A stretch of 64,000 nt of DNA from positions 62,001 through 126,000 of the forward strand of contig NZ_CP110921.1 in assembly GCF_026247885.1 (NCBI RefSeq), in the 5' to 3' direction. Source of the stretch: Methylococcus mesophilus. Its GTDB lineage: Bacteria; Pseudomonadota; Gammaproteobacteria; Methylococcales; Methylococcaceae. A program made the translations under genes and the position numbers. Below, piece by piece: positions 1 to 16,677 of this stretch; position 1 is the first letter of the stretch; each line of letters begins with the position of its first letter. Under the pieces are notes generated by a model. That model searched no databases. It was given only the letters and a program-made list of their open reading frames with translations, and was not told the DNA's origin.

Positions 1-362
1 CTTCCGCCTTCACCCTGCACAACTTCATGTATGGCTACCGCAGCGAGGTGCTGCGGGAAATCTTCCGGGTGCTCAAGCCCGGCGGGCTGTTCGTGAACGG
101 CGACCGCTACGGGCTGGACGACACTGTGGAGCATACCCGGCTGATCCAGGAGGAGGTGAAACAGTATTTCAAGATTTTCCGCGAGCTGGACCAGCTCGAC
201 CTGTTGGAACACTGGATCGTCCATCTGTTCAGCGACGAGTCGCCAGACCGAGTGATGCGGCTGGCTCCGGCTCTGGAAAGCATGGCGGAAATCGGATACC
301 AAGCCGTCACCGTGCATTATCGGAACGAGGTGAACGCGCTCGTGAGCGGAGTCAAGCCCTGA
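1..362 (+). CDS. SAM-dependent methyltransferase, C-terminal part (5' truncated by window edge)
   Basis: The reading frame is open from the first bases (frame 3) to the TGA at 360-362, so the start lies outside the window. The visible part reads FRVLKPGGLFVNGDRYG, the post-motif strand and loop typical of class I (Rossmann) SAM methyltransferases, where a V-L-K-P-G-G turn precedes a beta strand. The remaining about 90 residues are a helical C-terminal cap. Substrate cannot be inferred. The stop codon overlaps the probable start of radA, so the two are probably translationally coupled. I am confident of the family but not the role. Confidence 0.75.
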   Translation, partial: SAFTLHNFMYGYRSEVLREIFRVLKPGGLFVNGDRYGLDDTVEHTRLIQEEVKQYFKIFRELDQLDLLEHWIVHLFSDESPDRVMRLAPALESMAEIGYQAVTVHYRNEVNALVSGVKP

Positions 363-1732
363 GCGCGATTCGTTCCAAGCCCGGCCGGGTCGTCTACCGC
401 TGTACCGAGTGCGGCCAGGCGCAGCCCAAATGGGGAGGCCAGTGCGGCGGCTGCGGTTTGTGGAATACCCTGGTCGAGGAGGTCGAAGCACCCGCGCCGA
501 GCCGGCGCCAGGTCGGCTATGCCGGTGTCGCCGAGGCGAGCGTCCCGGTCTCCCTGGCCGAGGTGTCCCTGGAGGAACTGGCGCGCGTCGGCAGCGGCCT
601 GGCCGAACTCGACCGGGTGCTCGGCGGCGGCGTGGTGCCGGGTTCGGCGATCCTGCTCGGCGGCGATCCCGGCATCGGCAAATCCACCCTGTTGCTGCAG
701 ACTCTGGCTTTTCTGGGCAAGAGCGCTCGCACGCTGTACGTGACCGGCGAGGAGTCACTCAGCCAGGTCAGCCTCAGGGCACACCGTCTGGGCCTTGATG
801 GCCACGATATTCAGGCATTGGCCGAGACCTCGCTGGAACGCATCCTCGGCACTGCGAGCCAGTACAAGCCCGAGGTGCTGGTGGTCGATTCGATCCAGAC
901 CGTGTACAGCGAGGCCCTGCAATCGGCGCCCGGTTCGGTGGGGCAGGTCCGGGAGTGCGCGGCGCAACTGGTGCGCTATGCCAAGCAGAGTTCGACCACG
1001 GTGTTCTTGGTCGGCCACGTCACCAAGGAGGGCGCGCTGGCCGGTCCCCGGGTGCTGGAGCACATGGTCGACACCGTGCTGTACTTCGAGGGCGATGCCT
1101 CCAGCCGCTACCGGGTGGTGCGTTCGTTCAAGAACCGCTTCGGCGCGGTCAACGAACTCGGCGTGTTCGCCATGACCGAGACCGGCCTCAAGGAAGTCCG
1201 CAACCCTTCGGCCATCTTCCTGTCGCGGGGCGACGAGGACATGCCGGGCAGCATCGTCACCGTGACCCGCGAGGGTAGCCGGCCTCTGCTGGTCGAAGTC
1301 CAGGCCCTGGTCGACGAATCCCATCTCCAGGCCCCGCGGCGGCTGGTGGTGGGCATGGAGATGAATCGCCTGGCGATGCTGCTGGCGGTGCTGCACCGCC
1401 ATGGCGGCGTGCCGGTCGCGGCGCAGGACGTGTTCGTCAACCTGGTCGGTGGGGTCCGCCTCACTGAGACCGCCGGCGACCTCGCCGTGGCCTGTGCCGT
1501 GGTCTCCAGTTTCCGCGACCGTCCCGTGCCCGGCGACTGGGTCATCTTCGGCGAACTCGGCCTCAACGGCGAAATCCGCCCCGTGCCCAACGGCGACGAA
1601 CGGCTGCGCGAAGCCGCCAAGCACGGCTTCAAGCACGCCCTGGTGCCGGCCAAGAACGCGCCGAAGCAGGGCGTGCCCGGCGTTTCCATCATCCCTGCGA
1701 AAAATTTGCGGGAAGCGATCAACGCGCTTTGA
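359..1732 (+). CDS. radA: DNA repair protein RadA
   Basis: RadA is a RecA-like branch-migration ATPase used in recombinational repair. The frame encodes an N-terminal C4 zinc finger (CTEC...CGGC within the first 35 residues), Walker A GGDPGIGKST, the RadA KNRFG motif and a C-terminal Lon-protease-like domain. The first ATG (458) would remove the zinc finger, and no ATG, GTG or TTG lies in frame between the upstream gene and the finger. I place the start at CTG 359, overlapping the previous stop as CTGA; ATT 368 is an alternative. The resulting 457 residues match the usual family length of about 460. Confidence 0.9.
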   Translation: MSAIRSKPGRVVYRCTECGQAQPKWGGQCGGCGLWNTLVEEVEAPAPSRRQVGYAGVAEASVPVSLAEVSLEELARVGSGLAELDRVLGGGVVPGSAILLGGDPGIGKSTLLLQTLAFLGKSARTLYVTGEESLSQVSLRAHRLGLDGHDIQALAETSLERILGTASQYKPEVLVVDSIQTVYSEALQSAPGSVGQVRECAAQLVRYAKQSSTTVFLVGHVTKEGALAGPRVLEHMVDTVLYFEGDASSRYRVVRSFKNRFGAVNELGVFAMTETGLKEVRNPSAIFLSRGDEDMPGSIVTVTREGSRPLLVEVQALVDESHLQAPRRLVVGMEMNRLAMLLAVLHRHGGVPVAAQDVFVNLVGGVRLTETAGDLAVACAVVSSFRDRPVPGDWVIFGELGLNGEIRPVPNGDERLREAAKHGFKHALVPAKNAPKQGVPGVSIIPAKNLREAINAL

Positions 1733-1996
1733 CGGCGCACTTCTCGCCGGCGCATCTGCCGGATTTCCTCCCTCTCACCGGCAAAGTCCGGGCTCGACGC
1801 CATCGCGTAAGCGAAACGTAAGCCTCACGAAAGGACTCCCCGAAACCGCACTGCTAACCTCGCGTCGCTTTTTCCGGTTGCAAGCTGACGGATGCAAGGC
1901 GGGACCCGGGGCAACTTCATCCACTCCAAGGGTTTCGCTGTAGTCCTGTGCCTGCATTCGGACGGGATGAATCGAAATCATGTAGAGAGGAATCAT

Positions 1997-4191
1997 ATGA
2001 TGATGAGGGATGCAAGCCCGTTATCTTTGAGCCCGGTGCTGAGGTTAGTGCTGGCGCTGGCCGCCGGGCTCTGGGGTCCGGCGGCCGCTCATGCCGCGGC
2101 TGTTCCAGCGATTCCAAGCGAACTCGAGACGGCGGTAAGCGCGGATCTGCGCCGCATCGAAGCGGCGGGCGCGAGCGGTTACCGGGGGTTGAATCCGGAA
2201 AACCGGATGACGCTGAACTTCGACGGGCACAGCCTCCAGGTTGCCCCGGTCGGCAAGGGCAAGTCCTGGCACTGGGGTCTGGAGCTGGCCGGTTTTGGCA
2301 CGCCGGGTCATCTGCAACCGGTTCTGCCGGCGGAAGTCGCGGTGTCCGGGCAGCGGATGGAATACCGCCGAGGACCCTTGACCGAATGGTACGAAAACCG
2401 TCCCGAAGGGCTGGAGCAAGGCTTTACCCTCGCCAGGTCGCCGGTGGCTGGCGCATCAGAAATCGAGTTGAGTCTGAGCGCGACCGGGAATCTCAAGGCC
2501 GAGATCGAAGCGGGAGGGCACAGCGCCAGGCTGCGCGACCCAAGCGGCCGTGTGGAGCTGGCCTACCGCGACTTGCGTGTGGCCGATGCCAAAGGCAAAG
2601 CACTCCCGGCACAGATGACCTCGGCCGGAGAAAATCTCGCCATCCGGGTCGATGTCCGCGGCGCGGCTTGGCCCATCGTGGTCGATCCCCTGATTGTCAG
2701 CGAGCAGGCCAAGCTCACAGCCAGTGATGGGAGCACGCAAGATTATTTCGGCGGTTCGGTAGCGGTGTCGGGCGACACCGCGGTCGTGGGAGCCCCTGGC
2801 GCTGACGGCCCCGGAGTTCCGGGAGCTCCCGACGTGGGCGCAGCTTATGTGTATGTGCGGGTTGCGGGAGGAACGACCTGGGCTCAGCAAGCCAAACTCA
2901 CGGCCGGCGTCTGGACGCCGGCCGATTATTTTGGCGCGTCCGTCGCCATAGGGGGCGACACCATCGTCGTCGGAGCGCCGGCGGCAGAAGTGCTCAGCGA
3001 GTGCTGCGTCGGGGCGGCGTATGTCTTCGTCAAGCCTGCCGGGGGTTGGACGAACGCCACCGAGACGGCCAAGCTGACGGCGAGCGACTGGGTTCAGGGC
3101 AGTGATTTTGGCAGGTCGGTGGCGGTCTCGGGGGACACCGTACTGGTAGGGGCACCAGTCGGATCCGCCGGTTACGGCGCGGCCTACGTCTACTCCAAAC
3201 CTCCGGGCGGCTGGGCGAGCGGGACCGAGACGGCCAAGCTGACCGGAACTGATTCGGTGGTCAACGACAGTTTCGGTTTCTCCGTGGCGCTGACGGGGGA
3301 GACCGCAGTCGTGGGCGCGCCGTACGCCATTTTGGGGGGCACCCAGTCCTGGAATGGCGCGGCCTATGTATATGTCAAGCCTGCCGGTGGCTGGGTCGAT
3401 ACGACCGAGCAGGCGAGACTCCGCGCCAGCGATGGCGATACGGGGGATTCTTTCGGTTGGTCGATCGCCACTGCGGAAAACACGATTGTTGCGGGGGCTC
3501 CGTATGCGGACACGTCGGCCGCCGCCGATTCCGGCGCCGCTTATGTCTTCGTAAAGCCCCTCGGGGGCTGGGCGAGCGGAACGGAAACGGCCAAGCTCGC
3601 CGCCAGTGACGGACAATTCTTTGATTTGTTGGGCTGGTCGGTGGGGGCATGGGGCGATACCGTGTTGACGGGCGCCATCTACGCCCAAGTTGCGGGGGAG
3701 GTGAAGGGGGCTGCCTACCTCTATACCCGGCCTGCGGGAGGATGGGCGAATGGAACCGAGGCGGCGAGGCTTACGGCCTCGGATGGCGGCCAGTACGATA
3801 ACTTCGGCTCTGCCGTGTCGGTATCGGGGGCGACGGCGGTGGTTGGTGCGCCTTACGCCAGTGGGGCATAGCGGCGCCTCAGGCCGGCGCTGCCTACGTC
3901 TACGTGCGTCCGGAGCACGCCCTGACCGTGACCAAGAGCGGGACCGGCAGCGGTAAGGTGACGGGCGATCCCGCGGGCATCGACTCCGGCGCTGTGTGCC
4001 AGGCGAGCTACCCTGAAGGCACCATCGTCACCCTGACCGCCCAGGCTTCTCCCGGGCCGATCTTCCTGGGGCGGGTCACTTCTTGCAGCTATCAGCCGAT
4101 CGGCGCACCGGTACTGCCGCTCAGCCAGTGCCAGGTCAAGCTGAACAAGGCCAAGACCGTCAAGGCCAAGTTCGTCAAGGTATTGCCTTAG
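1997..4191 (+). pseudogene. Secreted FG-GAP repeat protein with C-terminal InlB-like repeat, interrupted by a frameshift
   Basis: ATG 1997 follows GAGAGG (1985-1990) and begins a Sec signal peptide ending near AAAHA. After a globular N-terminal region come about seven repeats of roughly 60 residues with the pattern AKLTASDG...FG.SVAVSGDT.VVGAP...GAAYVYVKP, which are FG-GAP (integrin-like beta-propeller) blades. The frame stops at TAG 3869-3871 inside the seventh blade, but the adjacent frame from 3871 continues exactly with AAPQAGAAYVYVRPEH and then a domain with TKSGTGSGKV and a terminal K-A-K-F motif, resembling the divergent InlB B-repeat. One base missing from the G run at 3863-3866 explains the break. 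Role unknown; a surface or extracellular binding protein is likely. Confidence 0.75.
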
Positions 4192-4333
4192 CCGCAAGGG
4201 CGGGTCCGTTTCGACCGGCCTTCGATCTTGATCATTGCGCAATTGTCCTGTTCCAAGTGCGCTTTCGTCCAAGAAAACGTCCGGGCGTTCGTTCAGAATC
4301 CACGCATACTTTTGATTGTTGGGCCAGGACAAA

Positions 4334-5392
4334 GTGAAGACAGCGATATCTACCACTGCCGCATTGCAACCGCGCCGGCTCGATGCGCCGATCGCAAGGT
4401 CGGGCCAGCCGTCGCGGCGGAATGCCAGCTTCCTCTTGAGGGGAGTGATCCGGGACTACGTCCGCGCCCGTCATAACAAAGTCCGCTATGAACGGTTGCG
4501 GCAGGCGGAAAGCCATCTGGTCCGCTGCGCCGAAATCCTCGGCGACCGGCCGATCGGTGTGTACCGGCCCGAGGATATCCGTATTCTGCTGAACGACCTG
4601 CACAGCGCCTATGGCTTGTCCGCCGCGACCGCCAACGGTTATCTCGGTTCGCTGTCGGCGTTGTTCAACTGGGCCATCGCGGAGCGGCGCTACGGCCTTG
4701 AGCGAAATCCTTGCAACCGCTGCCGGCTGCCGGACGAGAGCGTCGTGGCGGAACTGCGCCAGCAGAGTGGCGACAAACCGTTCAGCCTGGAGCAGCTGAA
4801 AATTTTCTTCGAGTCCGAGCATGCACGGAAAGGCGTCAACACGGCCTACAAGTACTGGATTCCCCTGATCCAGCTCTATGCGGGCGCTCGAATCGGGGAA
4901 ATTTGCCGGCTCACGTCCGAAGACATCGTGGAGCTTCCGGGTGGCATCCCGGCTTTCCGTCTGGTAGCGGCCAACGCCCGGTTGTCCGTCATGCGCAAAT
5001 TGCGTTTCGTGCCTGTTCACCCCCAGCTGATAGCCCTCGGACTGCTCGAGCACACAAGAAATCAGCACGGCCGGGACACGCTGTGGCCGGGGCTGAAGAT
5101 TCCGCGCCTGGGTAGCCAAGGACAGAATCTTGGAATGTGGCTCAACCGGCATTTGAACGTGTTGGGGCTGAAGCGGGAAGGGCGACGTTCCGACGTCTTC
5201 CGCGCCACATTCCGGGCTTCTTTGAGGCAGGCGGGCGTAGCCGAAGTCCACGTCGACGCCCTGCTGGGGCTGACCGGACGCGGTGGCGGCGGCTCCGCCA
5301 AGCCCCTCTGGGAAACTCATCCGGATGTGCTCCTGCGCGAACTGGCCAAGCTCGACTATGGCATCGAGCACGCCGCGCCTCCGGGGAGATAG
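4334..5392 (+). CDS. Tyrosine-recombinase-family protein with a degenerate active site
   Basis: The 352-residue product aligns by eye along its length with phage-type site-specific integrases: a SAM-like core-binding domain (about residues 30-120), then a catalytic-fold domain with GARIGEICRL (first catalytic Arg, about 186) and a family-typical end, LAKLDYG. The other active-site positions are altered: the usual H-x-x-R-H box reads DVFRATF, the LGH box reads LGL, and no tyrosine stands in the nucleophile region (KPLWETHP). The reading frame is intact. GTG 4334 is chosen; TTG 4316 is possible. No partner phage genes, excisionase or attachment repeats are visible nearby. DNA binding may persist, but strand cleavage looks impossible. 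Confidence 0.8.
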   Translation: MKTAISTTAALQPRRLDAPIARSGQPSRRNASFLLRGVIRDYVRARHNKVRYERLRQAESHLVRCAEILGDRPIGVYRPEDIRILLNDLHSAYGLSAATANGYLGSLSALFNWAIAERRYGLERNPCNRCRLPDESVVAELRQQSGDKPFSLEQLKIFFESEHARKGVNTAYKYWIPLIQLYAGARIGEICRLTSEDIVELPGGIPAFRLVAANARLSVMRKLRFVPVHPQLIALGLLEHTRNQHGRDTLWPGLKIPRLGSQGQNLGMWLNRHLNVLGLKREGRRSDVFRATFRASLRQAGVAEVHVDALLGLTGRGGGGSAKPLWETHPDVLLRELAKLDYGIEHAAPPGR

Positions 5393-5412
5393 CGGCGGAA
5401 ACCTTCGGTGCG

Positions 5413-8400
5413 CTATGAGGGCGATGCGAGCGCCTGCGGGCTGAGCGGTCGGAGAGCCCCCATCAGGGTTCCAGCCAGGGTCCTGCTTTCGTCATCGTCG
5501 CCTAAGCCATCGGCAAGTCCGCGGAGCACGGTTGCGGCCTGGCGGTGATGTTCCGCCGCAGCAGCGCTATCGCCCCGGCGCTCATGCAATTCCGCAGCCG
5601 TGGCATGCACCCGCCAGGCCGCCAGTGGCGCTTGGCCGTCCTCCACGAAAGTCAGCGCTTGCTCCATTCGGGCCGCGGCTTCGTGCCGGTCGTTTTCAGC
5701 CTGGGCGCACAACGCGAGAAGCCGGTTGCCGACTGCCTGGAAGTGGCGATTGCCCGGCGGGGTGGCCAGTGCCAGGAGCCGTCCCGCCGCGGAGCGCGCT
5801 TTTCCGGAGTCGCCTTCGGCCAGCCAATAGGCGCCGAGGTTTTCGTAGAACATCAGCCGGTAACGCAATTCGATCAGGGTGCCATCGTCCAAAGCTTGCT
5901 CGATTTGGTGAAAGAGCTTCCAGGCTTCGGCAAGACGGCCCTGGCCCAGGTAGGTATGCCCGTACATGAGCTGGTAAACGTACTTGGTGTATTGGTCGCC
6001 AAGATAGTTGGCCGCATTCATGCGGAAGACTTCGGCGCCTTGAAAATCAAGTGCTTGCAAATGCAGTGCCGCCTTAACCAGTTGATATGCTGTGTCGATG
6101 AAGAGGTTGGAGTTTTGGCTGGCGGTATGCAGGCCTTCGTCGATAGCCGCAACCAATTGCGGCCAGTTTCCGGAATATAGCGGTGGCCAGGTGCGGTAAT
6201 ACTGTCCCCCCATGTAATTGAAGCTGTCTCTCTGACGTAGACTGAGCTGCACGACTTCATCGGCTGCGCATAGAGCGTCCAAATAGCAAGACTGCGAACA
6301 TAGCAGGGCGGATTGCATCGCTCCGAAATGTGCAAGGAGGTTTGCGTCGTTCAGCGCTCGCACGCCTTGGAGTGCGGATTCGAAATCGGCCCGCTCGGTG
6401 TCTCTTCATCCGCCGAAATCCAGATGAAAATAAGCCAGATAACCCGACGCGTAAGCCTGGAATCTTGAGTCCGCAATCTCCAGGCTGCGATGGTGCGAAG
6501 ATTTCAGCAACTCCTGAAAATGCCTGCGGTCGCAAAAGGAAGTCGCCAGGGTCAACAGGTGCAAAGCGCTGATTTCCGTTTCGATACGCCCGGCGTCGCG
6601 GGCAAGTTCGACGAGCGCTTCGAGGTCTGAGAGAACCGCGGCCCATTCGGTAAGTGCCCAGTTCACGCGGGACCGCAGTTGGAGGAGCTTCAGCCGGGCA
6701 TCGATGCGTACGGCTTCGGGCAGACGATCCGTCCAGCCAAGGGCGCGGTTCAGGTAATCCAGCGCCTCACGGTTGGCATAGCGGCGGGCTGAGTGTTCCG
6801 CCGCCACGGTCAGGTAATGTGCCGCCTGGGTGGGGCATTCCGGCCCGCCTCGAAATGCCGGGCCAGTTCGGCGGCGATATCGCTCGCCTGCGCGCCATGG
6901 GCGGACTCCAGCCGCTCGGCCAGACGCAGATGCAGCGAAATGCGGCAGGCGGGAGTCAGGTCCTGATACAACACGTCGGCGTACAGCGCGTGACGGAAGG
7001 CATACTGTCCGGCGACCGTGCCGTCCGGCCATTCTGAAATACCCGTGTTGGCGAGTATCGCCCCGCCTCGCGCCAGTCTTTCACAGACGGCTTCGACGTC
7101 CACGACGTCACGATCCAGCGCCGATGCCAGCAGCGCCGCCGAACTCTCCACGCCGGCGGCGCTGGCTACCCCGAGCAACCGCTGCTCCTCGGGCGACAGC
7201 CGCGATACCTGGTGCCGGATCATCTGGCGAACGTCGTCCGGAATCTGAGTCTCCAGCGTATCGGCGTCGCTGAAATGCCAGCCGCTCGCCAACGGCTGGA
7301 GCTGACCTCGGGAAAGGAGGTAATCCAGCAGGTTCACCAGGAACAGGGGATGGCCTCCGCTTCTGCGGTGGAGGAGGCGCCCGACCGGTTCCGGGGGAGC
7401 CTGTTCCGGAAACCGCTTGGCCAGATAATCCTGCACCTCCTCGAAACGCCAGGTGTCCAGCGCCAGCTCGGCGCACAAGCGGTGGGACGCCAGTTCCTGC
7501 TGCACCTGTTTCACCGGGTGCTCCCGCAGTGCGGCATCCCCTGCCCGGTAGCTGCCGATGACCAACAGCGCCGCCCGGCCGCGTCTTCGCCCCAAGAGGC
7601 TCAAGAGCTCCAGGGTCGCATTGTCGCTCCAATGCAGGTCTTCGAGCACCAGAACCAGCGGCGTCCGGGTACTCAATGCCTCCAGCAGCTCGCAGCCTTC
7701 GCGCAGCATGCGTACCCGGTTCGCGCCGATCACTTCCTGCTGCAAGCCGGCACGTTCCTCCGGCGTGACCGCTCCCGGCAACTGCGCTAACCAGGTTGGC
7801 GCCCGGCTGCGCAAAACCGACTTACAGCGGGCCGCGTGGCTGCCCAGGGCGCTGAGCAGGGGCAGGAAGGCTTCGCCCGTGCCGAAATGGTCGATGCACT
7901 GCCCCCACAGGACAGGCGGCGGGGCAGGCTCCCGGCCCAGGTCGCGCAGCAGCATCTCGATGAGGGTGGTCTTGCCGATACCTGCCTCGCCGGTGAGAAA
8001 GAGAATCCGCCGTTCGCCGGCGAGCGTCTCGGCCCAGAGACGGTGGAGCCGGGCCAGTGCTCCCTTCCGGCCCGCCCAACGCTCGGCGTCGGGAGGCGCC
8101 GTATGGGCATGGGACGTAACCGCTGTCGCGGTCTCGTCCAATTCGGCACACCGAACCGCGACTTCGGCGATGAAGCGGTAACCCCGTTTGGGAACGGTCT
8201 CGATGTCGCGCGGCGACCGGGAGTCGTCTTCCAATGCCTTCCGCAACTGATTGATGCATACCTCGACGACCGAGTCCCTGACATAACCGCGGGGCCAGAC
8301 CGCATTCAGCAGTTCGTCCTTGCCGACCAGCCGACCCGAACGCTCGACCAGATGGCACAACACCGCAAAGGCCTTGGGCCGCAGCGGCAGCGTCTCTCCC

Positions 8401-8468
8401 GCGCGCGTAAGCCGGGCGTCGGCCGGTTCGAGCCGGTAGGGACCAAAATTCCACTCGGGAAGGGTCAT
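5413..8468 (-). pseudogene. Winged-helix / AAA ATPase / TPR transcriptional regulator, broken by a frameshift and a stop
   Basis: From ATG 8468 the protein has an OmpR/PhoB-type winged helix (first 105 residues, ending VPKRGYRFIAEV), then a STAND/AAA-type ATPase with Walker A LTGEAGIGKTT and LVLVLEDLHW, followed by helical repeats. The first frame ends at 6810 after ARHFEAGRN; the neighbouring frame continues homologously (AAHYLTVAAEHSARRYANRE), so a frameshift lies near 6835-6845 in a C-rich run. The second frame is cut by an in-frame TGA (6406-6408) after HLDFGG, and the same frame resumes with RDTERADFESALQG to the end at 5413. Two lesions make loss of function likely, though the DNA-binding and ATPase part could still be made alone. 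Confidence 0.8.
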
Positions 8469-8476
8469 GTCGGTAT

Positions 8477-8743
8477 GTGGGGCTACGGGGTGAAGTTGCC
8501 GGAGGTTTTATTGACGGGCCCTCCCAGCTCTTGCCCGCCTTGGCCGCAGGTCTCGATGCGAAGCAGGATCCGGGGCTGTCGCAGCAGGTTTCGACGTTCA
8601 CCCAATCGGAATTCAGCCGGACTCTTCAGTCCTGGGGCAACCACCACTTGATGCCGGGCGGCGCTTCGGACGCCGAACCGGCCGCAGAGCTTCCGAATCT
8701 GACTTGGTTTCCGGTCGTCGACATCGGGTTCATGGCCTCGTGA
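8477..8743 (+). pseudogene. Remnant of a DUF1501 family gene with an internal deletion
   Basis: The short frame contains VSTFTQSEFSRTLQSWGNHH followed by LMPGGA, which matches the DUF1501 core (family pattern: V.TFT.S.FGRT....GSDHGWGNHH.V.GGAV). The text then jumps to LPNLTWFPVVDIGFMAS, which resembles the family's last residues (LPNL..F...DLGFM). About 60-100 residues normally lie between these motifs, so an internal piece is gone, along with almost all of the N-terminal part. It sits head to head with the broken regulator at 5413-8468. I regard it as a decayed gene; translation is doubtful. Confidence 0.55.
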
Positions 8744-9602
8744 AGTCCGTCGCCGGCCTCGTCCGCAGATAGCGAACGATCGCGTCGGCGGTACGGTAGC
8801 GCTCGGCTTCGGGCAACAGCGCGTCCAGCGGCGGCATCGAAGTGCCGGGGCGCATTTTCTGGGGTTCGATGATCCAGCTTTGCAGCGCTTGGTCGCTGAG
8901 AGGGCGGGAGATTTCGCGCAGGTCGGCGGGAAATTTCTCGCCGCCGATGCCAGCTACCCGGTGACAGGTCAGGCAGTATTTCCTGGCGTGCTTGAAGCCT
9001 TCGGTAGCCGCGGTGTCGGCCTCTTGCGGACGCGCCGCGGCGTAGTCCGCCGGCGTGGCCAGGTCGATCCTTACGACCTGGTAGGGCCAGCCGTACGCGC
9101 CTTGGGCACGAGCGGCCGGGTCGTGCAGGTTGTCCCAGATGAGGTAGTAAGGCCCCAGCGCCACGCCGCTTTCATGCTGGCTCGGGTTGTCGACCGTAAA
9201 GGGCCTGCCGTCGGCTCGGCTGACAGCGAGCCAGGCGGAGCCGGCGAGAAAACGCCCTGAGTCGACGCCGGAGCGGTAGCCGTCGCGGGAGAAAAACACG
9301 ACCTCTGTGCCAGGAATTTTCCAGCGTTCCCCGAACAGCCGGGTCAATAATCCGGTCATTCCGAACCCCCGGTAGCTGATCCGCAGTTCGTGTCCGGGGC
9401 TGGAAGCGTGCGGCTCGACCACCTCGACGGTTTCTGCCGGAACGCGGGCCTCGGATTCCAGTCTGCCCGGCGGGGGGAGTTCGACGGCGAGGACGGGCAG
9501 TGCCATGGCCGCGACAGCCGCCCGGACAAAGGTACGAAAAATATCCGCTGCGGCACAGGGCCGCCGGGTGGCGAGCCTTCCGTTGCGAACGGTTACCCTC
9601 AT
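8730..9602 (-). CDS. Exported c-type cytochrome with an uncharacterised N-terminal domain
   Basis: The 290-residue product has an N-terminal hydrophobic signal segment (about 25-42), a middle domain (about 60-190, including WKIPGTEVVFFSRDGYRSG and YYLIWDN) and a class I cytochrome c domain with heme motif CLTCH (210-214) and a likely Met ligand in RPGTSMPP. The middle domain looks somewhat like molybdopterin oxidoreductase (sulfite-oxidase-like) folds, but I cannot assign it. A periplasmic electron carrier or redox enzyme is inferred. Its ATG overlaps the uspA stop by 4 nt, indicating coupling. Its end overlaps the DUF1501 remnant on the other strand. Confidence 0.75.
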   Translation of the reverse strand: MRVTVRNGRLATRRPCAAADIFRTFVRAAVAAMALPVLAVELPPPGRLESEARVPAETVEVVEPHASSPGHELRISYRGFGMTGLLTRLFGERWKIPGTEVVFFSRDGYRSGVDSGRFLAGSAWLAVSRADGRPFTVDNPSQHESGVALGPYYLIWDNLHDPAARAQGAYGWPYQVVRIDLATPADYAAARPQEADTAATEGFKHARKYCLTCHRVAGIGGEKFPADLREISRPLSDQALQSWIIEPQKMRPGTSMPPLDALLPEAERYRTADAIVRYLRTRPATDFTRP

Positions 9603-10027
9603 GCGGGCACCATGAGGACCGGCACGGAAGTCCCGCGCAGGACGCCCTCACAACTGCTCCCGACGATGAGCCGGGCCAGCAGTCCCTTGCCGTGGGAACC
9701 GAGTACGATCATGTCTGCCTGCAGCCGCTCGGCTTCCTTGAGAATCGTGTCCACCGCCGGCCCCTGGATCATGAGTCCGGTGCAGCTGAATCCCTCCGCC
9801 CGCAAGGCTTCGGCCGCCTCCTGGACCCGCCGGTGCCAAATCTTGTAGGTTTCGGCGGCCAGGTCGCGCATGACCAGAGGATCGGCGTCGTAGCCGACGA
9901 AGTCCGGCTCCGGTTCGGCAACGTGCAGCAGCCATATTTCGGCGGATAACGCTTTGGCCAGGAGCTTGGCCTGGCCCAGTACCTTGTCGGTGATTTCGGA
10001 AAAATCGATCGCAACCAGCAGCTTCAT
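9599..10027 (-). CDS. Universal stress protein UspA family
   Basis: The 142-residue single-domain protein begins MKLLVAIDFSE and carries the ATP-binding signature GSHGKG followed at the usual spacing by GSSCEGVL and SVPVLMV. Such proteins bind ATP and modulate stress survival in the cytoplasm. It is the first gene of a two-gene unit with the cytochrome at 8730-9602, with a 4-nt ATGA overlap. A possible promoter lies at 10085-10114. The partner cytochrome hints at a redox or respiration-linked stress role, which is inference. Confidence 0.9.
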   Translation of the reverse strand: MKLLVAIDFSEITDKVLGQAKLLAKALSAEIWLLHVAEPEPDFVGYDADPLVMRDLAAETYKIWHRRVQEAAEALRAEGFSCTGLMIQGPAVDTILKEAERLQADMIVLGSHGKGLLARLIVGSSCEGVLRGTSVPVLMVPA

Positions 10028-10084
10028 GGGTGGTCAGCCTGTTCGATGGATGAGTGGTCATCGGCCCGGTTGCGGGCCGCGGAC

Positions 10085-10114
10085 ATTATTGGGCGGGATT
10101 TGCGGCAATGTAAA
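10085..10114 (-). promoter_or_regulatory. Possible sigma-70 promoter for uspA-cytochrome unit
   Basis: Read on the minus strand, TTTACA (10114-10109) is followed after 18 bp by AATAAT (10090-10085). Both are close to -35/-10 consensus and lie about 60 bp before the uspA start. Pattern match only. Confidence 0.4.
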
Positions 10115-10354
10115 CCGGAGCCTTCGTTCGGACGAGGGCTCGAATTCCGGCGATGCCGCCGGGAGGGAAAAATGCGCCATCCATGGCTGAACATTCCTTG
10201 ATGGGGAATGCCAGGAGACCGTGTCCTGAAGATGGGAGATGATGGACGCACGCATGCCGGCAGAGGTTAAGCGCCGGCATCGGCGTCGGCGTCGGCAAAT
10301 GACAAGCATGATCGATGCCAGACGCCCTGGGAACGGAGAGGTCGCGGCATCGGA
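10115..10354. other. Intergenic stretch between uspA promoter and flippase gene
   Basis: No supportable gene is seen in this non-coding stretch. The only regular structure is a short hexamer tandem at 10275-10296, CGGCAT then CGGCGT twice then CGGC. No convincing terminator for the flippase gene ending at 10355 is visible. Confidence 0.5.
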
Positions 10355-11839
10355 CTAGCGGGTTGGCGCAGGTTCACGGAGCCGGTGTCGCTCCAGCACG
10401 ACCACGAGGGCGAAGATCAGGAGCAGAAGGCTGTTGCTGAAGGTTAATTCGGCCCAGAGCGGCAACGATGGCATCTGGTCGGTCAGCTGCCAGATGCTCA
10501 CGGCGAGCAGGGGATAGCCAAGAATTCGTCGCAGGTCGTAGCGGACCGGGTAGAACCGCCGGCCCATGACGTAGGACAGCAAGGCCATGCTGCCATAGCA
10601 GGCCAACGTCGCCCAGGCGGCGCCCATGTAGCCGAGCCGCGGTATCCAATAGAGGTTGAGCGCTAGGGTGACCGCCGCTCCCCAGAGGGTCAGGTAGGTG
10701 CCGAAGCGCGTCTGTTCGGTCAGTTTGTACCAGATGGAAAAATTGAAGAAGACGCCCAGCCACAGGTTCGCCATCAGAAGGATGGGGACGACGCCGATGC
10801 CGGCGCGGTACTTGGCTCCGACGAAATACTGGATCCAGCCGAGGTTGAGCATCACACCCAGGAAGATCAGGGAACATGCGATGATGAACCAGTTCATGAC
10901 CAGGGCATAGAGTTCCCGCGCATCCTTCTGCCGGTAGTAGGAGAAGAAAAACGGCTCGGCAGCATAGCGGAACGCCTGGATGAAAAGGCTCATCAGGATG
11001 GCGATCTTGTAGCAGGCACCGTAAATGCCGAGCTGTTCCATGGCGATGTCCGGCGGCAACAGATACTTCAGCAGAATGCGGTCTAGGGTCTCGTTGACCA
11101 TGCCCGCAAGGCCGGCGATCAGGAGCGGCAGGGCATAGGCCAGCATCCGTCGCCACAGTGCGACATCAAACCGAAGTTTCACCGCGGCCAGTTCGGGCAC
11201 CAGCAGCAACAGGGTCAGGCCGCTGGCAATCAGATTGGCAATGAACACATAGCCGATGCCGATGGCGGGATCATAGAGCCGTGCCGCCCAAGCCAGCGAA
11301 TCTTCCGCTCCGCTGTCATATGCCCATTTGCACAAGCCGATGAGAAAGGCATTGGCTGCGATGTTGACGAGGATATTCGTGGTCTTGAGCACCGCGAAAC
11401 GCTTCGCTTGCTGTTGCTCCCTCAGCTTGGCGAAAGGGATGGCGGCGAGCGTGTCCAGGGCGATGATCCAGGCGACCCAGCGTACGTAATCGGTGTGGTC
11501 GGGATGGCGAAGCACGGCGGCAAGGGTGTCGGCTTGCCATGACACCGCTGCCAGGTACAGCGCTGTCGACAGTGTCAGAGACAGCAGCGCGGTGCTGTAC
11601 ACTGTGGCTTTGCCTTCGGATTTTGCAGAAAAGTTGAACAGGGCGGTTTCCATGCCGTAGGTCAGGACGACGTTCAGAAACGACGTATAGGCATAGAACT
11701 CGGTTATGACGCCGAATTCGCCCGGATCGGCGAACTGGTAGGTGTACAGCGGGACCAGGAAGTAATTGAGCAGTCTGCCGATGATGGTGCTGAGGCCGTA
11801 GATCGCGGTCTGGCCTGCCAGCTTCTTGAGCGGATTCAT
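10355..11839 (-). CDS. Polysaccharide (Wzx-like) flippase, MOP superfamily
   Basis: The 494-residue protein is hydrophobic throughout, with about 12-14 predicted membrane helices, and starts KKLAGQTAIYGLSTIIGRLL, the amphipathic start typical of oligosaccharide flippases/lipopolysaccharide exporters. Such proteins move lipid-linked saccharides across the inner membrane. No glycosyltransferase or polymerase genes flank it, so it appears as an orphan and its substrate is unknown. It is transcribed divergently from the cis/trans isomerase gene with a 77-bp gap. Confidence 0.85.
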   Translation of the reverse strand: MNPLKKLAGQTAIYGLSTIIGRLLNYFLVPLYTYQFADPGEFGVITEFYAYTSFLNVVLTYGMETALFNFSAKSEGKATVYSTALLSLTLSTALYLAAVSWQADTLAAVLRHPDHTDYVRWVAWIIALDTLAAIPFAKLREQQQAKRFAVLKTTNILVNIAANAFLIGLCKWAYDSGAEDSLAWAARLYDPAIGIGYVFIANLIASGLTLLLLVPELAAVKLRFDVALWRRMLAYALPLLIAGLAGMVNETLDRILLKYLLPPDIAMEQLGIYGACYKIAILMSLFIQAFRYAAEPFFFSYYRQKDARELYALVMNWFIIACSLIFLGVMLNLGWIQYFVGAKYRAGIGVVPILLMANLWLGVFFNFSIWYKLTEQTRFGTYLTLWGAAVTLALNLYWIPRLGYMGAAWATLACYGSMALLSYVMGRRFYPVRYDLRRILGYPLLAVSIWQLTDQMPSLPLWAELTFSNSLLLLIFALVVVLERHRLREPAPTR

Positions 11840-11916
11840 GATCGGGGGATGCGGTGCAAAGCGTCAATGCTACCACTGCGGGTGTTGGCGGATACGGAGT
11901 GTGGACAGGAGGGTGG

Positions 11917-14358
11917 ATGCTGCGTGAGTTTCTGGGATGGCGCCGGTGCCTGGCGGTTGCATTGGGGATGCTTGCGATCGCCGGTTGCATCGAGGCTTAC
12001 CGCACCGATTATGACACGCGCTACGGTCCGCCCGTGCCGCGGGAGCGGCGCCTGAGCGAGGAGGCCTATCTGGCGCAGCTCGCCGCCGGCAAGGCGTCCT
12101 ATGCCCGCGATGTCCAGCCTATCCTCGATTCGCGCTGTGTCGTCTGTCATGGTTGTTATGACGCGCCTTGCCAGTTGAAGCTGGAGTCTTTCGAGGGTCT
12201 GGAGCGCGGCGGCAGCAAGACATCCGTATACGACACCACCCGCCTCCAGACCGCATCGCCGACGCGCTTGTTCATCGATGCCGACGGCGTCCCGGCTTGG
12301 CGTTCGAAGGGGTTCTTCCCGGCGCTGAACGAACGGGGCGATTCGTCCGAGGCGAACCTGCTGGGCTCCTTGCTGTTTCGGATGCTCGAGTTGAAGAAGG
12401 CGCATCCCCTGCCCACTTCAGGCGTGTTGCCTGACACTTTCGACTTCGGCCTCGACCGCACGCTGAACTGTCCCGCCATCGAGGAGTTCGACGATTTCGC
12501 CGGCGATCACCCAGAATGGGGCATGCCTTACGGTTTCCCCGGCCTGAGCGAGCGTGAGCACGATACCTTGGTAAGCTGGCTGCGCCAGGGCGGGTTCGCG
12601 CCGCCTCCCGATCCCGTGTCGCCCGAGGCCGGGGCGGCCGTGGCACGCTGGGAGGCGTTCCTCAATGGCCCGAGTCCGAAGGAGCGGCTGTTCGCCCGCT
12701 ACGTTTACGAGCATCTGTTCATCGGCAACCTCCATTTCAGCGGATTGGCACCCCGCGAGTTCTTCCGGCTGGTCCGCTCCCGCACGCCGCCCGGGGAGCC
12801 CATCCGGGAAATCGCGACGACCCGGCCGTACGATAGTCCGGGACCAGGGGAATTCTATTACCGCTTGCGGCCGGTGCGGCAGAGCATCGTCGACAAGATA
12901 CACATGGTCTACGAACTCGACGACGCACGGATCCTCCGTTACCGGGCGCTGTTTCTGGAGCCTGAGTACACGGTCGACCGGCTGCCGGGTTATGCCGCCG
13001 CCGACGCCGCCAACCCATTCAAGACTTTCGTCGCCATTCCTCCCAGGTCGCGCTACCGGTTCCTGCTCGACGATGCCCATTTCTTCTTTTCCGGTTTCAT
13101 GAAGGGGCCGGTCTGCCGGGGACAAGCTGCGCTCAACGTGATCCAGGACCGTTTTTGGGTCGCCTTCACCGATCCCGATGCTGATCCCGTCAGCAACGAC
13201 GCCCAATTTCTGGCGAACCAGGCGGAGCGCCTGCGGCTGCCGGCCGAGAAGGAAAATTCTCCCGGCATCGGCGACATCTGGTACACCTACCGGGTGCTGG
13301 AAGAAGACTATCAGGCAGCGAAGGCGGGCTGGCTACGGATCCACGGCGATCGCGGCGGCACCGCGCTGCACGACCTCTGGGGCGGCGACGGCAACAATCC
13401 CGATGCCTTGCTGACGGTGTTCCGACATTTCGACAGCGCTTCGGTCGAGCGGGGCCTGGTCGGAGACACGCCGCTGACCGCCTGGGTCGTCGACTACCCC
13501 TTGCTGGAGCGGATTCATTATCTGTTGGTCGCGGGGTTCGATGTGTTCGGCAATGTCGGCCATCAGCTGGCGACCCGCTTGTACATGGATTTCATGCGCA
13601 TGGAGGCGGAGAACAATTTTCTCCGGTTCCTGCCGTCGGACATGAGGCAGGCCGAACGTGCTAGCTGGTACAAAGGCGTTGGCGGCGAAATCAACGGCCT
13701 CTGGCAGAATCCGCTTTGGGGGCTCGCCGGTGAGACGGTCATCGGTTACCGGACCGGCGATCCCAAGAAGGAATTTTTCGATCTGGTCCGGCGTCGCTTC
13801 GGCGATGCGGTGGGTCAGCCAGACCCGTTCACCGGCTGCGGTGTCGCGGGATGCGGGCAGGGCGGTACGCCGACGGATCCGCCGGCGCAGGCATCCGTGG
13901 AGCGCGAACTGCGGCGCCTGGCGTACGCCAAGGGCGGCGGGATCGCCTTTCTTCCCGAGTTGTCCTATCTGCGCATCCGGACCGGGACGGGCGGGACGGA
14001 CGACGGCTGGATCTACAGCCTGGTCAAAAACACCGCGCTCGAAAATGTGTCGATGCTGTTCCTCGAAGAATTGCGGCGGACGCCGGCGGAAGACACACTG
14101 ACGCTGGTCCGAGGCATCGTCGGTAGCTATCCGAATTTCTTTTTCGACCTCCACGAAGCCGAGGCCGGCGAATTCGTGGACGCCATCCTGAGCCTGGACA
14201 GCCCGAAAGCGTTCGGTCCGAAGCTGGCCGAGCGCTTTGGCGTCCGCCGCAGCAATCCGGGATTCTGGAAGATATCGGACTGGTTCAACCGGCATCACCT
14301 CGAGGCGAACCCCGTCACGGCGGGCTGGCTGGATCTGAGCCGTTACGACAATTTATGA
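11917..14358 (+). CDS. cti: Fatty acid cis/trans isomerase
   Basis: Cti converts cis-unsaturated phospholipid acyl chains to trans in place, stiffening the membrane under solvent or heat stress, and acts in the periplasm using a heme c. The 813-residue product has a hydrophobic export segment ending in a lipobox-like AIAGC (residue 24), then heme motif CVVCH (74-78) followed by G-C, and the long Cti domain to the end. ATG 11917 is preferred because AGGAGGG lies just upstream; an in-frame ATG at 11854 would precede the signal sequence. Its last 44 bases overlap tilS on the other strand. Confidence 0.9.
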   Translation: MLREFLGWRRCLAVALGMLAIAGCIEAYRTDYDTRYGPPVPRERRLSEEAYLAQLAAGKASYARDVQPILDSRCVVCHGCYDAPCQLKLESFEGLERGGSKTSVYDTTRLQTASPTRLFIDADGVPAWRSKGFFPALNERGDSSEANLLGSLLFRMLELKKAHPLPTSGVLPDTFDFGLDRTLNCPAIEEFDDFAGDHPEWGMPYGFPGLSEREHDTLVSWLRQGGFAPPPDPVSPEAGAAVARWEAFLNGPSPKERLFARYVYEHLFIGNLHFSGLAPREFFRLVRSRTPPGEPIREIATTRPYDSPGPGEFYYRLRPVRQSIVDKIHMVYELDDARILRYRALFLEPEYTVDRLPGYAAADAANPFKTFVAIPPRSRYRFLLDDAHFFFSGFMKGPVCRGQAALNVIQDRFWVAFTDPDADPVSNDAQFLANQAERLRLPAEKENSPGIGDIWYTYRVLEEDYQAAKAGWLRIHGDRGGTALHDLWGGDGNNPDALLTVFRHFDSASVERGLVGDTPLTAWVVDYPLLERIHYLLVAGFDVFGNVGHQLATRLYMDFMRMEAENNFLRFLPSDMRQAERASWYKGVGGEINGLWQNPLWGLAGETVIGYRTGDPKKEFFDLVRRRFGDAVGQPDPFTGCGVAGCGQGGTPTDPPAQASVERELRRLAYAKGGGIAFLPELSYLRIRTGTGGTDDGWIYSLVKNTALENVSMLFLEELRRTPAEDTLTLVRGIVGSYPNFFFDLHEAEAGEFVDAILSLDSPKAFGPKLAERFGVRRSNPGFWKISDWFNRHHLEANPVTAGWLDLSRYDNL

Positions 14359-15682
14359 CGGTTTCCGGGTTCCAGCGGACGACAACGTTGGCCTGTTCCG
14401 GGGGACCTGCGAACTCGGAAGCCAGCCAACGGTTGTCGCCGATCGCGGCGATCCTGCCGTCGATACAGACGATGGGCTGGCGGTTTCGCAGCCACGGCGG
14501 CAGCCCCGCCTCCTGGAACAGTTTCTTGAGTTCCCGGTGTCCCTTGCGGCCCGCCGGTTCGATCCGGTCGCCATCCCTCCGGTAACGTACGGAGATGCGC
14601 CCGCCACGCCATTTGTCCGGATCGATGCCGGGGCCAGGTTGCAGCGAAGCGTCGAGGCTGCCATTGCCGGCCAGCATGAGCGGCGTCTCGCCGCTCCAGG
14701 CGGCCGTCCAGGAAGCGTCGAAATCCGCTGAGGCAGGAACCAGATAGATGCAGTGACGGTAGCGCCGCATCTCTCCGTCGGTCCAGGCAATCGTCGGCGA
14801 ATGCTCGCCGGCCGTTTCGACGATTTCCCTCCTCATCCGCTCCAGCAGCTTCGCGGGGGGGGCGCGCAGACCCCGGTTCCGTATCCAGCGGCGCAGCAGG
14901 AGCCGTTGTTCGTCCGGCTGGAATTTCCGGACAGCATCGAGGTCTAGGCTGCCCGAATCAACCGCGGCCGCCGCGGCGGCCGTCAGGACGTCGGCGTGCT
15001 TATCCAGGAGTTCGACGGCTTCGGCACAGTGTCCGGCGCTGCGGGACAGATTGGCCACGACTGCCGGCCAGCGTCCGGCGAGCTGCGGCATGATCCGCCG
15101 ACGGATGAAATTGCGATCGTAGCGCTCGTCGCGGTTGCTGGGGTCTTCGATCCAGTTCAGGCCTCGGGCTCGCGCGTACGCCAGAACTTCCCGGCGGCTG
15201 AAAGGGAGGAGGGGCCGGTGCAGGAGGCCCGGGCCGAAAGGGGCGGCGTTCGGCATGGCGGCGAGGCCGGCCAAGCCCGCCCCGCGCAGCAGTTGAAGCA
15301 GCAGCGTTTCGGCTTGGTCATCGAGATGTTGTGCCGTCACGAGGATATCTCCCGGACGCAGCAAGCCTTCGAGGGCCAGGTAGCGTGCGGTACGCGCCGC
15401 CGCCTCGGGACTCTCGCCGGGCTTGGGGCGTCCGTCGACCCGAAGAATGTCCAGAGCGATGCCGTACTTGTCGGCGACCGCCGCGCAGTGCCGGCACCAG
15501 GCATCGGCTTCGGGCAGGAGTCCGTGGTGAATGTGGATGGCGCGCAGGTCGATGGCGGAGAGGCGGCGAACCTCCTGCATCAGATCGAGCAGGACGGCGG
15601 AGTCCAGCCCGCCGCTGAAAGCCACCCGGTAGGCGGTGCCAGTGTGGAGGCCGGCGCGGAAACTCTCGAGGCTCAATCTCAC
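14315..15682 (-). CDS. tilS: tRNA(Ile)-lysidine synthetase
   Basis: TilS attaches lysine to C34 of the CAU-anticodon tRNA(Ile), changing its decoding from AUG to AUA. The product shows the PP-loop FSGGLDSAVLLDL near residue 20, the central TilS substrate-binding domain and the C-terminal domain with PAGRKGHRELKKLFQEAG. Start is GTG 15682, 30 nt after the accA stop, with GAGAGG upstream; an ATG far upstream in this frame only reads the accA shadow. 455 residues is normal for the family. The accA-tilS order is common in proteobacteria. Confidence 0.93.
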   Translation of the reverse strand: MRLSLESFRAGLHTGTAYRVAFSGGLDSAVLLDLMQEVRRLSAIDLRAIHIHHGLLPEADAWCRHCAAVADKYGIALDILRVDGRPKPGESPEAAARTARYLALEGLLRPGDILVTAQHLDDQAETLLLQLLRGAGLAGLAAMPNAAPFGPGLLHRPLLPFSRREVLAYARARGLNWIEDPSNRDERYDRNFIRRRIMPQLAGRWPAVVANLSRSAGHCAEAVELLDKHADVLTAAAAAAVDSGSLDLDAVRKFQPDEQRLLLRRWIRNRGLRAPPAKLLERMRREIVETAGEHSPTIAWTDGEMRRYRHCIYLVPASADFDASWTAAWSGETPLMLAGNGSLDASLQPGPGIDPDKWRGGRISVRYRRDGDRIEPAGRKGHRELKKLFQEAGLPPWLRNRQPIVCIDGRIAAIGDNRWLASEFAGPPEQANVVVRWNPETVINCRNGSDPASPP

Positions 15683-15711
15683 CGGATTCGCCTCTCGCCG
15701 GCGGGCTTTCC

Positions 15712-16677
15712 TCAGGCGGCCGGCTCTTCGTAAACGCCGTAGCCCATGAGGCGTTCGTAGCGCATGGCCAGGAGTTCGTCCATCGGCAAGGCGGCGAGTT
15801 CCTCGAGATTGCGCTTGAGTTCGGTCTTGAGGTTGTCGGCCATCCGCTCCCGGTCGCGATGCGCGCCTCCCAGTGGCTCCGGCACGATCGAATCGATCAG
15901 CCCCAGCTCCATCAGGCGCTCGGACGTGATGCCCATGGCTTCCGCTGCCAGCTCGGCCTTCTCCGCGCTCTTCCACAGAATGGAGGCGCAACCTTCGGGC
16001 GTGATGACGGAATAAGTGCTGTACTGGAGCATCACCAGACGGTCGCCCACGCCGATGGCCAAAGCGCCTCCGGATCCGCCTTCGCCGATCACCACACAGA
16101 CGATGGGGGTCTGCAGCTGCGCCATTTCGAACAGGTTGCGGGCGATCGCCTCGCTCTGGCCGCGTTCCTCGGCATTGATGCCCGGGTAGGCGCCGGGGGT
16201 GTCGATGAGGCAGACGATGGGCAACTGGAAGCGCTCGGCGAGCCGCATCAGCCGCAGCGCCTTGCGATACCCTTCCGGCCTCGGCATGCCGAAATTCCGG
16301 TAGATTTTTTCCTTGGTGTCGCGTCCTTTCTGGTGCCCGATGACCAGCACCGCCGTGCCGTCGAGCCGGGCCAGGCCGCCGATGATGGCGGGGTCGTCGG
16401 CGAAGGCTCGGTCGCCGTGCAGTTCGTGGAACTCCTGGAAGATCAGGTCGATGTAATCGCGGCTGTGCGGCCTTTGCGGATGCCGGGATATCTGGGAAAT
16501 TTGCCAGGCGCTGAGGGAGGAAAAGACCGATTCGGTGAGCTTGCGGCTTTTCTCTTCGAGTTTGGCGATTTCCTCGGAGATGTTGATTTCGTTGTCGAAT
16601 CCGACGTGTCTGAGCTCTTCGATCTTGGCTTCGAGCTCGGCGATCGGCTGTTCGAAATCCAGGAATTTCAGATCCAT
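15712..16677 (-). CDS. accA: Acetyl-CoA carboxylase carboxyltransferase subunit alpha
   Basis: AccA with AccD transfers carboxyl from carboxybiotin to acetyl-CoA, giving malonyl-CoA for fatty acid synthesis. The 321-residue protein matches family length, begins [16 protein letters not shown] and contains the carboxyltransferase motifs IDTPGAYPG and [12 protein letters not shown]. It is followed by tilS in the same direction. Confidence 0.97.

Follow-up and report, generated by a model that had tools for sequence, protein, structure and literature searches.

The dead tyrosine recombinases with a demonstrated role that we found are MrpR, a prophage protein, and TnsF, a transposon protein; the Crypton-derived genes domesticated in animals lost catalysis as well. 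MrpR (YopR; PDB: 8A0A) is the master repressor of the Bacillus prophage SPbeta, has a tyrosine-recombinase fold that has lost recombination, and represses via a repeated DNA element; it keeps the catalytic Lys and Tyr and lacks the first Arg together with the His and His/Trp residues, with the second Arg ambiguous (PMC10516654). TnsF of the Tn6022-type Tn7 transposons is an inactivated tyrosine recombinase that selects the DNA target; zinc fingers at its N-terminus are combined with core-binding domains in tandem and a partial catalytic domain, and TniQ is its partner (PMC10293859). The Crypton-derived animal genes would share with the proteins reported here the domestication of a tyrosine recombinase by its host, and they differ in being eukaryotic (PMC3212892).

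Here, we compare these systems with a gene from Methylococcus, a model methanotroph genus. Within the window, a 64,000-nucleotide stretch of the Methylococcus mesophilus contig NZ_CP110921.1, this gene, termed A, occupies positions 4334-5392 on the + strand and encodes a tyrosine-recombinase-type protein of 352 aa plus the stop; its assignment as a stripped tyrosine-recombinase-fold protein draws on the ORF, PHROGs family phrog_1, sequence alignment, AlphaFold2 (AF2), and VIA-align. We searched six Methylococcus genomes (G000, G003, G017, G021, G041, and G093; G000 is the genome of the window) and found A orthologs in five, with 70-90% identity, and no match to A in the genome of the MAG G093. 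B-type paralogs were present in all six (identity to A of 54-56% by search and 51-53% by alignment). The window genome carries two, the gyrB-side copy and an extra one that is its third family copy. The family so defined comprises 12 proteins (5 A and 7 B-type), none of which has an internal stop.

Similar to MrpR, the Methylococcus family combines a core-binding domain and a catalytic-domain fold with the loss of active-site residues. In contrast to MrpR, it keeps both Arg residues and has lost the His and Tyr residues and, in A, also the LGH His; moreover, MrpR is encoded by a prophage, whereas the Methylococcus family is chromosomal, located beside gyrB or radA, and has paralogs. Unlike TnsF, the window protein combines a single core-binding domain with a complete catalytic-domain fold; no zinc finger was matched by Pfam up to E 1, and no Tn7 genes were recognised by eye among the neighbours read. 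By analogy, MrpR appears to be the best precedent, with TnsF second. We assign a probability of roughly 0.6 to the interpretation, based on sequence comparison, modelling, and these analogies, that the Methylococcus proteins are a domesticated, non-recombining, DNA-binding tyrosine-recombinase family like MrpR or TnsF. What appears to be new is a dead tyrosine recombinase forming a genus-wide chromosomal family, with paralogs at fixed loci, that is a probable DNA binder; the papers listed in our literature searches, mostly outside subscription journals, include no description of this family in Methylococcus. Homology-based annotation would label its members integrases, and they might be counted as evidence of mobile elements.

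The reading frame of A is open from GTG at 4334, or from an alternative TTG at 4316, to the stop at 5392. The GTG is the better start, since the K-T-A following it also begins A of G021 and B of G093; a Shine-Dalgarno-like AGGA, read from the sequence, precedes it at 4326-4329 (+ strand). A scan of positions 4180-5480 for sigma-70 promoters found none. The open frame by itself is little proof, because the DNA is GC-rich and the antisense frame of the A stretch is open too. Among the 12 homologs, the coding frame contains a stop in 0/12, while the antisense frame is open in 2/12 and closed in 10/12.

PHROGs assigned the window protein to the integrase family phrog_1 (E 4.5e-28). Pfam Phage_integrase (PF00589) gave no match to it up to E 1, a miss that fits its stripped active site; relative to the PF00589 cut-off of 27.1 bits, the paralog L010 lies just above (29.4), and L027 (21.0) and L005 (22.8) lie below. 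In the search for NCBIfam XerC/XerD equivalogs, the window protein matched 0 families and neither of the paralogs L010 and L005 exceeded 26.4 bits, with cut-offs near 330, and two proteins scanned for defence families gave 0 matches. Active phrog_1-type integrases (L011, L019, L099, and others) represent the family of origin, with both domains aligning, and differ in that they keep a Tyr and, with few exceptions, HxxR and LGH as well. L011 and L019 also carry an N-terminal DUF6538 domain, which was matched neither in the window protein nor in L005, L010, or L027.

The AF2 model of the window protein, computed on a 52-row alignment, reached a pLDDT of 86.4 and a pTM of 0.75, compared with a pLDDT of 63.7 for a poor earlier model on 12 rows. 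The 52 rows include 40 of the 50 prepared outgroup references, and the same rows were used for the tree described below. Comparison of the model with known structures by VIA-align returned lambda Int (Z 17.2), Tn1549 Int (17.0), XerH (15.1), and Cre (13.3), in alignments spanning about 250-280 residues and both domains. In the same list, phi3T SroF, DNA-bound according to its entry title (PDB: 9rd5; 10% identity to the window protein), came at rank 48 with Z 11.2, below lambda Int, and the MrpR structure 8A0A was not among the best 50 matches of each structure search. AF2 helices and VIA-align to integrase core-binding domains place a core-binding (SAM-like) domain at residues ~32-130 (4427-4723, + strand), where Pfam SAM-like matches are weak and below cut-off. 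VIA-align to the HP1 and lambda catalytic domains, together with the sequence alignment, places the catalytic-domain fold, its active site stripped, at residues ~141-343 (4754-5362, + strand). In the model, the core-binding and catalytic-domain fold of a tyrosine recombinase is intact, in agreement with the first-pass annotation, which had described an integrase-type fold kept from end to end in one open frame. Most structural alignments end at residue 317-318 and leave out the nucleophile helix, and for this reason the assignment of that helix rests on the sequence alignment and the AF2 helices at 325-337.

To compare the active sites, the 12 family proteins were aligned with an outgroup of 55 non-genus proteins, 50 of which cover the site. 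The first catalytic Arg, R186 (4889-4891, + strand), is retained in 12/12 family rows and 55/55 outgroup rows, and R290 is present in 12/12 family proteins and in 50/50 outgroup proteins covering the site. The latter residue is kept within the one-time HxxRH box, which reads DVFRATF (SDVFRATF in context; residues 287-293; 5192-5212, + strand) and has lost both His residues. At the HxxR His position, the family rows have Asp (6/12) or Glu (6/12), and at the second His of the box, Ala (6/12) or Ser (6/12); the outgroup has the HxxR His in 46/50 and Tyr in the other 4. The one-time LGH box is LGL (within LLGLTG; residues 311-313; 5264-5272, + strand), its His position being Leu in 5/5 A rows and His in 6/7 or Gln in 1/7 B-type rows, with His or Trp in 45/50 outgroup proteins. 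The one-time nucleophile region, KPLWETHP (residues 323-330; 5300-5323, + strand), is without Tyr; a Tyr at the aligned nucleophile place is absent from 12/12 family rows, and the nucleophile segment contains a Tyr in 50/50 outgroup integrases covering the site. These replacements and the two remaining arginines had been read earlier from the window protein, and the alignment with active relatives bears them out, placing no Tyr and no catalytic His in its active site. The same replacements are found in the four A orthologs. The family illustrates which parts of the recombinase machine selection preserves after the loss of cutting: the fold and the two arginines remain, and His and Tyr disappear.

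In a maximum-likelihood tree of the 52 rows, the 12 stripped proteins form one clade (support 100/100, stem 1.42), which indicates that the loss of the active site is old and common to the whole family. A (5) and gyrB-side B (6) are supported branches, and the extra paralog falls outside both with weak support (83/49). Overlapping non-genus samples of the order (201 genomes), class (369), and phylum (398) gave best profile matches of 77, 94, and 121 bits, respectively, versus 599-668 bits for genus members; all 55 non-genus loci delivered by these searches were inspected, and a distant stripped relative may still occur among the further phylum-sample matches listed without a locus. A pattern scan of genome contigs, which finds close relatives only, gave 2 loci from 68 stretches, both in Methylococcus. 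Among viral contigs, 37 stretches fit the pattern and none was confirmed. An origin from a present phage element was considered and rejected, as 1/50,697 phage records matches, at 24% identity. Plasmid records match in 20/72,556 cases, 15 of them listed at 25-35% identity.

In 6/6 genomes, B and gyrB are direct neighbours in tail-to-tail orientation, B lying at the gyrB 3' end. The order dnaA-dnaN-recF-gyrB is visible in five of them, and the G093 contig breaks off inside gyrB; at the B locus of the window genome, Pfam confirms dnaA, dnaN, a recF-type gene, gyrB, and yicC. The other neighbour of B is a divergent AraC-family gene (PF14525 and HTH_18 in two copies scanned), followed by yicC. In G000, G003, G041, and G021, A lies between a radA-like gene, with Pfam ATPase and ChlI domains, and a block that contains a Usp gene and a gene without Pfam match; G000 and G003 have additional genes on either side of A. 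In G093, this block comes immediately after the radA-like gene, with no A between them, and in G017 (M. capsulatus) A lies 41 kb from radA, with the Usp block elsewhere. The dS of A was 0.31 between G017 and the window copy (B 0.82) and 1.30 between G017 and G021 (B 0.46). This divergence, unlike that of B, suggests that the M. capsulatus copy of A passed between species or changed its place. The absence of A from G093 and its displacement in G017 show that the gene can be lost in evolution and has shifted position, and most likely, judging from the loci, B is ancestral and A is a derived copy.

Upstream of A, at 4240-4275 (+ strand), lies a conserved element, CAATTGTCC + TTCGTCCAAGAA, common to the B promoters and a third locus. 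It is a ~35-bp block with two direct GTCC repeats 21-22 bp apart (GTCC to GTCC 22 bp in the window) and is found upstream of A in 5/5 genomes and of gyrB-side B in 6/6; in A of G041, the first repeat reads ATCC, not GTCC. A sequence-only model made from these 11 A/B sites and run over the six Methylococcus genomes returned the 11 sites and one further clear site per genome (E 2e-5 to 6e-5, partial matches). In 6/6 genomes, this third site precedes an HbpS-like gene whose other neighbour is an AraC-family gene; the HbpS-like domain (PF03928) was confirmed in two copies scanned, and the protein is probably exported (signal peptide by eye). The third site falls inside the 5' end of the HbpS-like ORF in three genomes under first-start ORF calls, and we assume on that account that the true starts of these genes are internal. 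Four further matches are weak (E 0.03-0.4): one in G000 adjoins an AraC gene and the gene of a small, probably exported protein, two (G000, G093) lie shortly before the third-locus AraC gene on the opposite strand, and the fourth, in G041, is without an AraC or exported-protein neighbour. The model scan gave no match near the extra paralog. In 32 other genomes of the bacterial family, with 150 candidates scored per genome, there was one weak match (E 0.005). The element and the recombinase family have the same known range, with strong matches in 6/6 Methylococcus genomes.

Direct repeats about 21 bp apart are a usual layout of AraC-family operators. The likelier reader of the element would be an AraC-family protein, considering this spacing and the AraC genes that adjoin the element everywhere except at A. 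Alternatively, the dead recombinase, rather than an AraC protein, could bind the GTCC element both at its own promoters and at that of the HbpS-like gene, which would make up an autoregulatory circuit specific to the genus, and the family would then be chromosomal transcription or nucleoid factors, one beside dnaA-dnaN-recF-gyrB and one beside radA. The recombinase is a candidate reader because the element, like the recombinase family, hardly occurs outside the genus, a range that does not tell the two readers apart; the two weak matches just before the AraC gene lower its standing, and we consider the combination of element binding and chromosomal factors tentative and on the whole unlikely. 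A, B, the shared element, and the adjacent AraC gene provide concrete candidates for direct tests.

Under the favored reading, that of a domesticated DNA-binding family, a phrog_1-type integrase would have lost its catalytic His and Tyr residues in the Methylococcus ancestor, probably along with its N-terminal arm domain, and would have been kept as a chromosomal DNA-binding protein that has given up all recombination. With a clamp of two domains and a pair of phosphate-binding arginines, the protein could grip specific duplex DNA without cutting it, which is the most likely outcome given that clamp and arginines are kept while the Tyr, the HxxR His, the LGH His (in A), and probably the Lys are gone. 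A and B may act as a transcription regulator of putative target genes or as an architectural, DNA-shaping protein. From an ancestral B at dnaA-dnaN-recF-gyrB, a copy with its promoter element may have moved next to radA and become A, and the A and B promoters would share an operator-like direct repeat that is probably read by the AraC-family regulator divergent from B.

We infer DNA binding by A and B from the fold and from the conservation of the two arginines, which gives some room to a moonlighting role that involves no DNA binding, such as that of a protein-protein scaffold on the old fold. The invariance of both phosphate-contacting arginines is hard to explain without nucleic acid contact, and such a role seems quite improbable. 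The same can be said of a non-catalytic subunit serving as the structural partner of an active recombinase in a synaptic complex. In the regions compared, inspection by eye and mutual BLAST revealed no second recombinase gene adjoining A or B. The place of B next to gyrB is fixed, A is mostly found next to radA, and no att-like repeat surrounds A within window positions 1-16000, where FG-GAP-type and short repeats only were found. This holds even though the window genome has 21 PF00589 matches (18 above cut-off, some of them fragments; two of the three below it are stripped paralogs) and the Tsy transposon needs two tyrosine recombinases (PMC10293859). The earlier statement that the gene stands without att repeats or phage genes is upheld for these positions and, as regards phage genes recognised by eye, for the ORFs listed for 1-12000. 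A tRNA-Pro at 15750 lies 10 kb from A.

A rebuilt catalysis, in which another residue has taken over as nucleophile and recombination or nicking of DNA continues, is very unlikely. The nucleophile segment of the 12 rows has no invariant Ser or Cys, nor any invariant Tyr besides Y342. In a wider count of any Tyr in alignment columns 314-339, 1/12 family rows has one (L009, whose off-place Tyr lies three residues before the P of PLW) versus 50/50 outgroup integrases. Y342 (LDYG), the sole Tyr downstream of residue 290 in the window protein, was ruled out as the missing nucleophile, since several active relatives carry Tyr or Phe there plus their own nucleophile. All 12 rows have lost the HxxR His, and the Lys appears not to be conserved: a gapless count by eye from the VPVHP motif puts Ser at the beta-hairpin Lys place of the window protein, and in the alignment the B hairpin is shorter, with a Lys nearby in 5/7 B-type rows. 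What speaks for a rebuilt site is that P324 and W326, where the Tyr helix begins, are invariant in 12/12 family rows, suggesting a constrained pocket, and that some IntCTnDOT members place the first arginine elsewhere (PMC8138268).

Nei-Gojobori dN/dS was 0.13-0.35 for ten A pairs, 0.075-0.21 for fifteen gyrB-side B pairs, and 0.20-0.32 for six pairs with the extra copy, figures that are rough since many dS values exceed 1. Variable sites at codon positions 1/2/3 numbered 106/87/231 in A and 125/89/270 in gyrB-side B. The one-time active-site segment had a pN/pS of 0.28 (five A rows) and 0.24 (five B rows), and the first 30 residues of A, with a pN/pS of 0.83, evolve nearly freely. Judged by these substitution patterns, the family is under purifying selection. 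In the window genome, the FG-GAP gene 5' of A and the OmpR/AAA/TPR regulator gene 3' of A are frameshifted versus G003; unlike both neighbours, in which sequencing error is possible, A has no indel versus G003, and none of its 11 homologs is frameshifted. A pseudogene or phage-integrase remnant in early decay, its frame open by chance, would account for the stripped active site, the open antisense frame in the window, and the frameshifted flanking genes, but it appears largely refuted and extremely unlikely given the absence of stops from all 12 homologs, the ortholog dN/dS of 0.075-0.35, the excess of codon-position-3 changes, the lack of indels in A beside neighbours that have them, and the same losses in paralogs that separate before species in the tree. 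The suggestion in the first-pass annotation of use rather than simple decay is likewise supported, with dN/dS well below 1 and the same losses in orthologs.

Beyond that annotation, the gyrB-side paralog family, the shared promoter element, and the extra paralog came to light. The extra paralog is at L033 8950-18606 (G000:C1 ~2.295-2.304 Mb), with two AraC-family genes and probable exported proteins; apart from its recombinase and AraC genes, this stretch had no counterpart in the other regions of the comparison. At L091-L096 and L097 5766-5788, AraC paralogs, exported-protein neighbours (one HbpS-like), and the TTGTCCAAGAA element look like a genus-specific regulon. In G017, at G017:C1 472 kb (L029), A adjoins a sodium/bile-acid-symporter-type gene, along with nuo-like genes and a short fragment of an IS3-like transposase, both identified by eye; it lies in a 1.38-kb stretch that resembles the A loci of G003 and the window. 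The FG-GAP-repeat gene at window 1892-4191 (+ strand) and the OmpR-type/AAA/TPR regulator at 5413-8468 (- strand) have intact copies in G003. Finally, a Phage_integrase match of 92.6 bits lies at G000:C1 42512-43009, ~19 kb before the start of the window.
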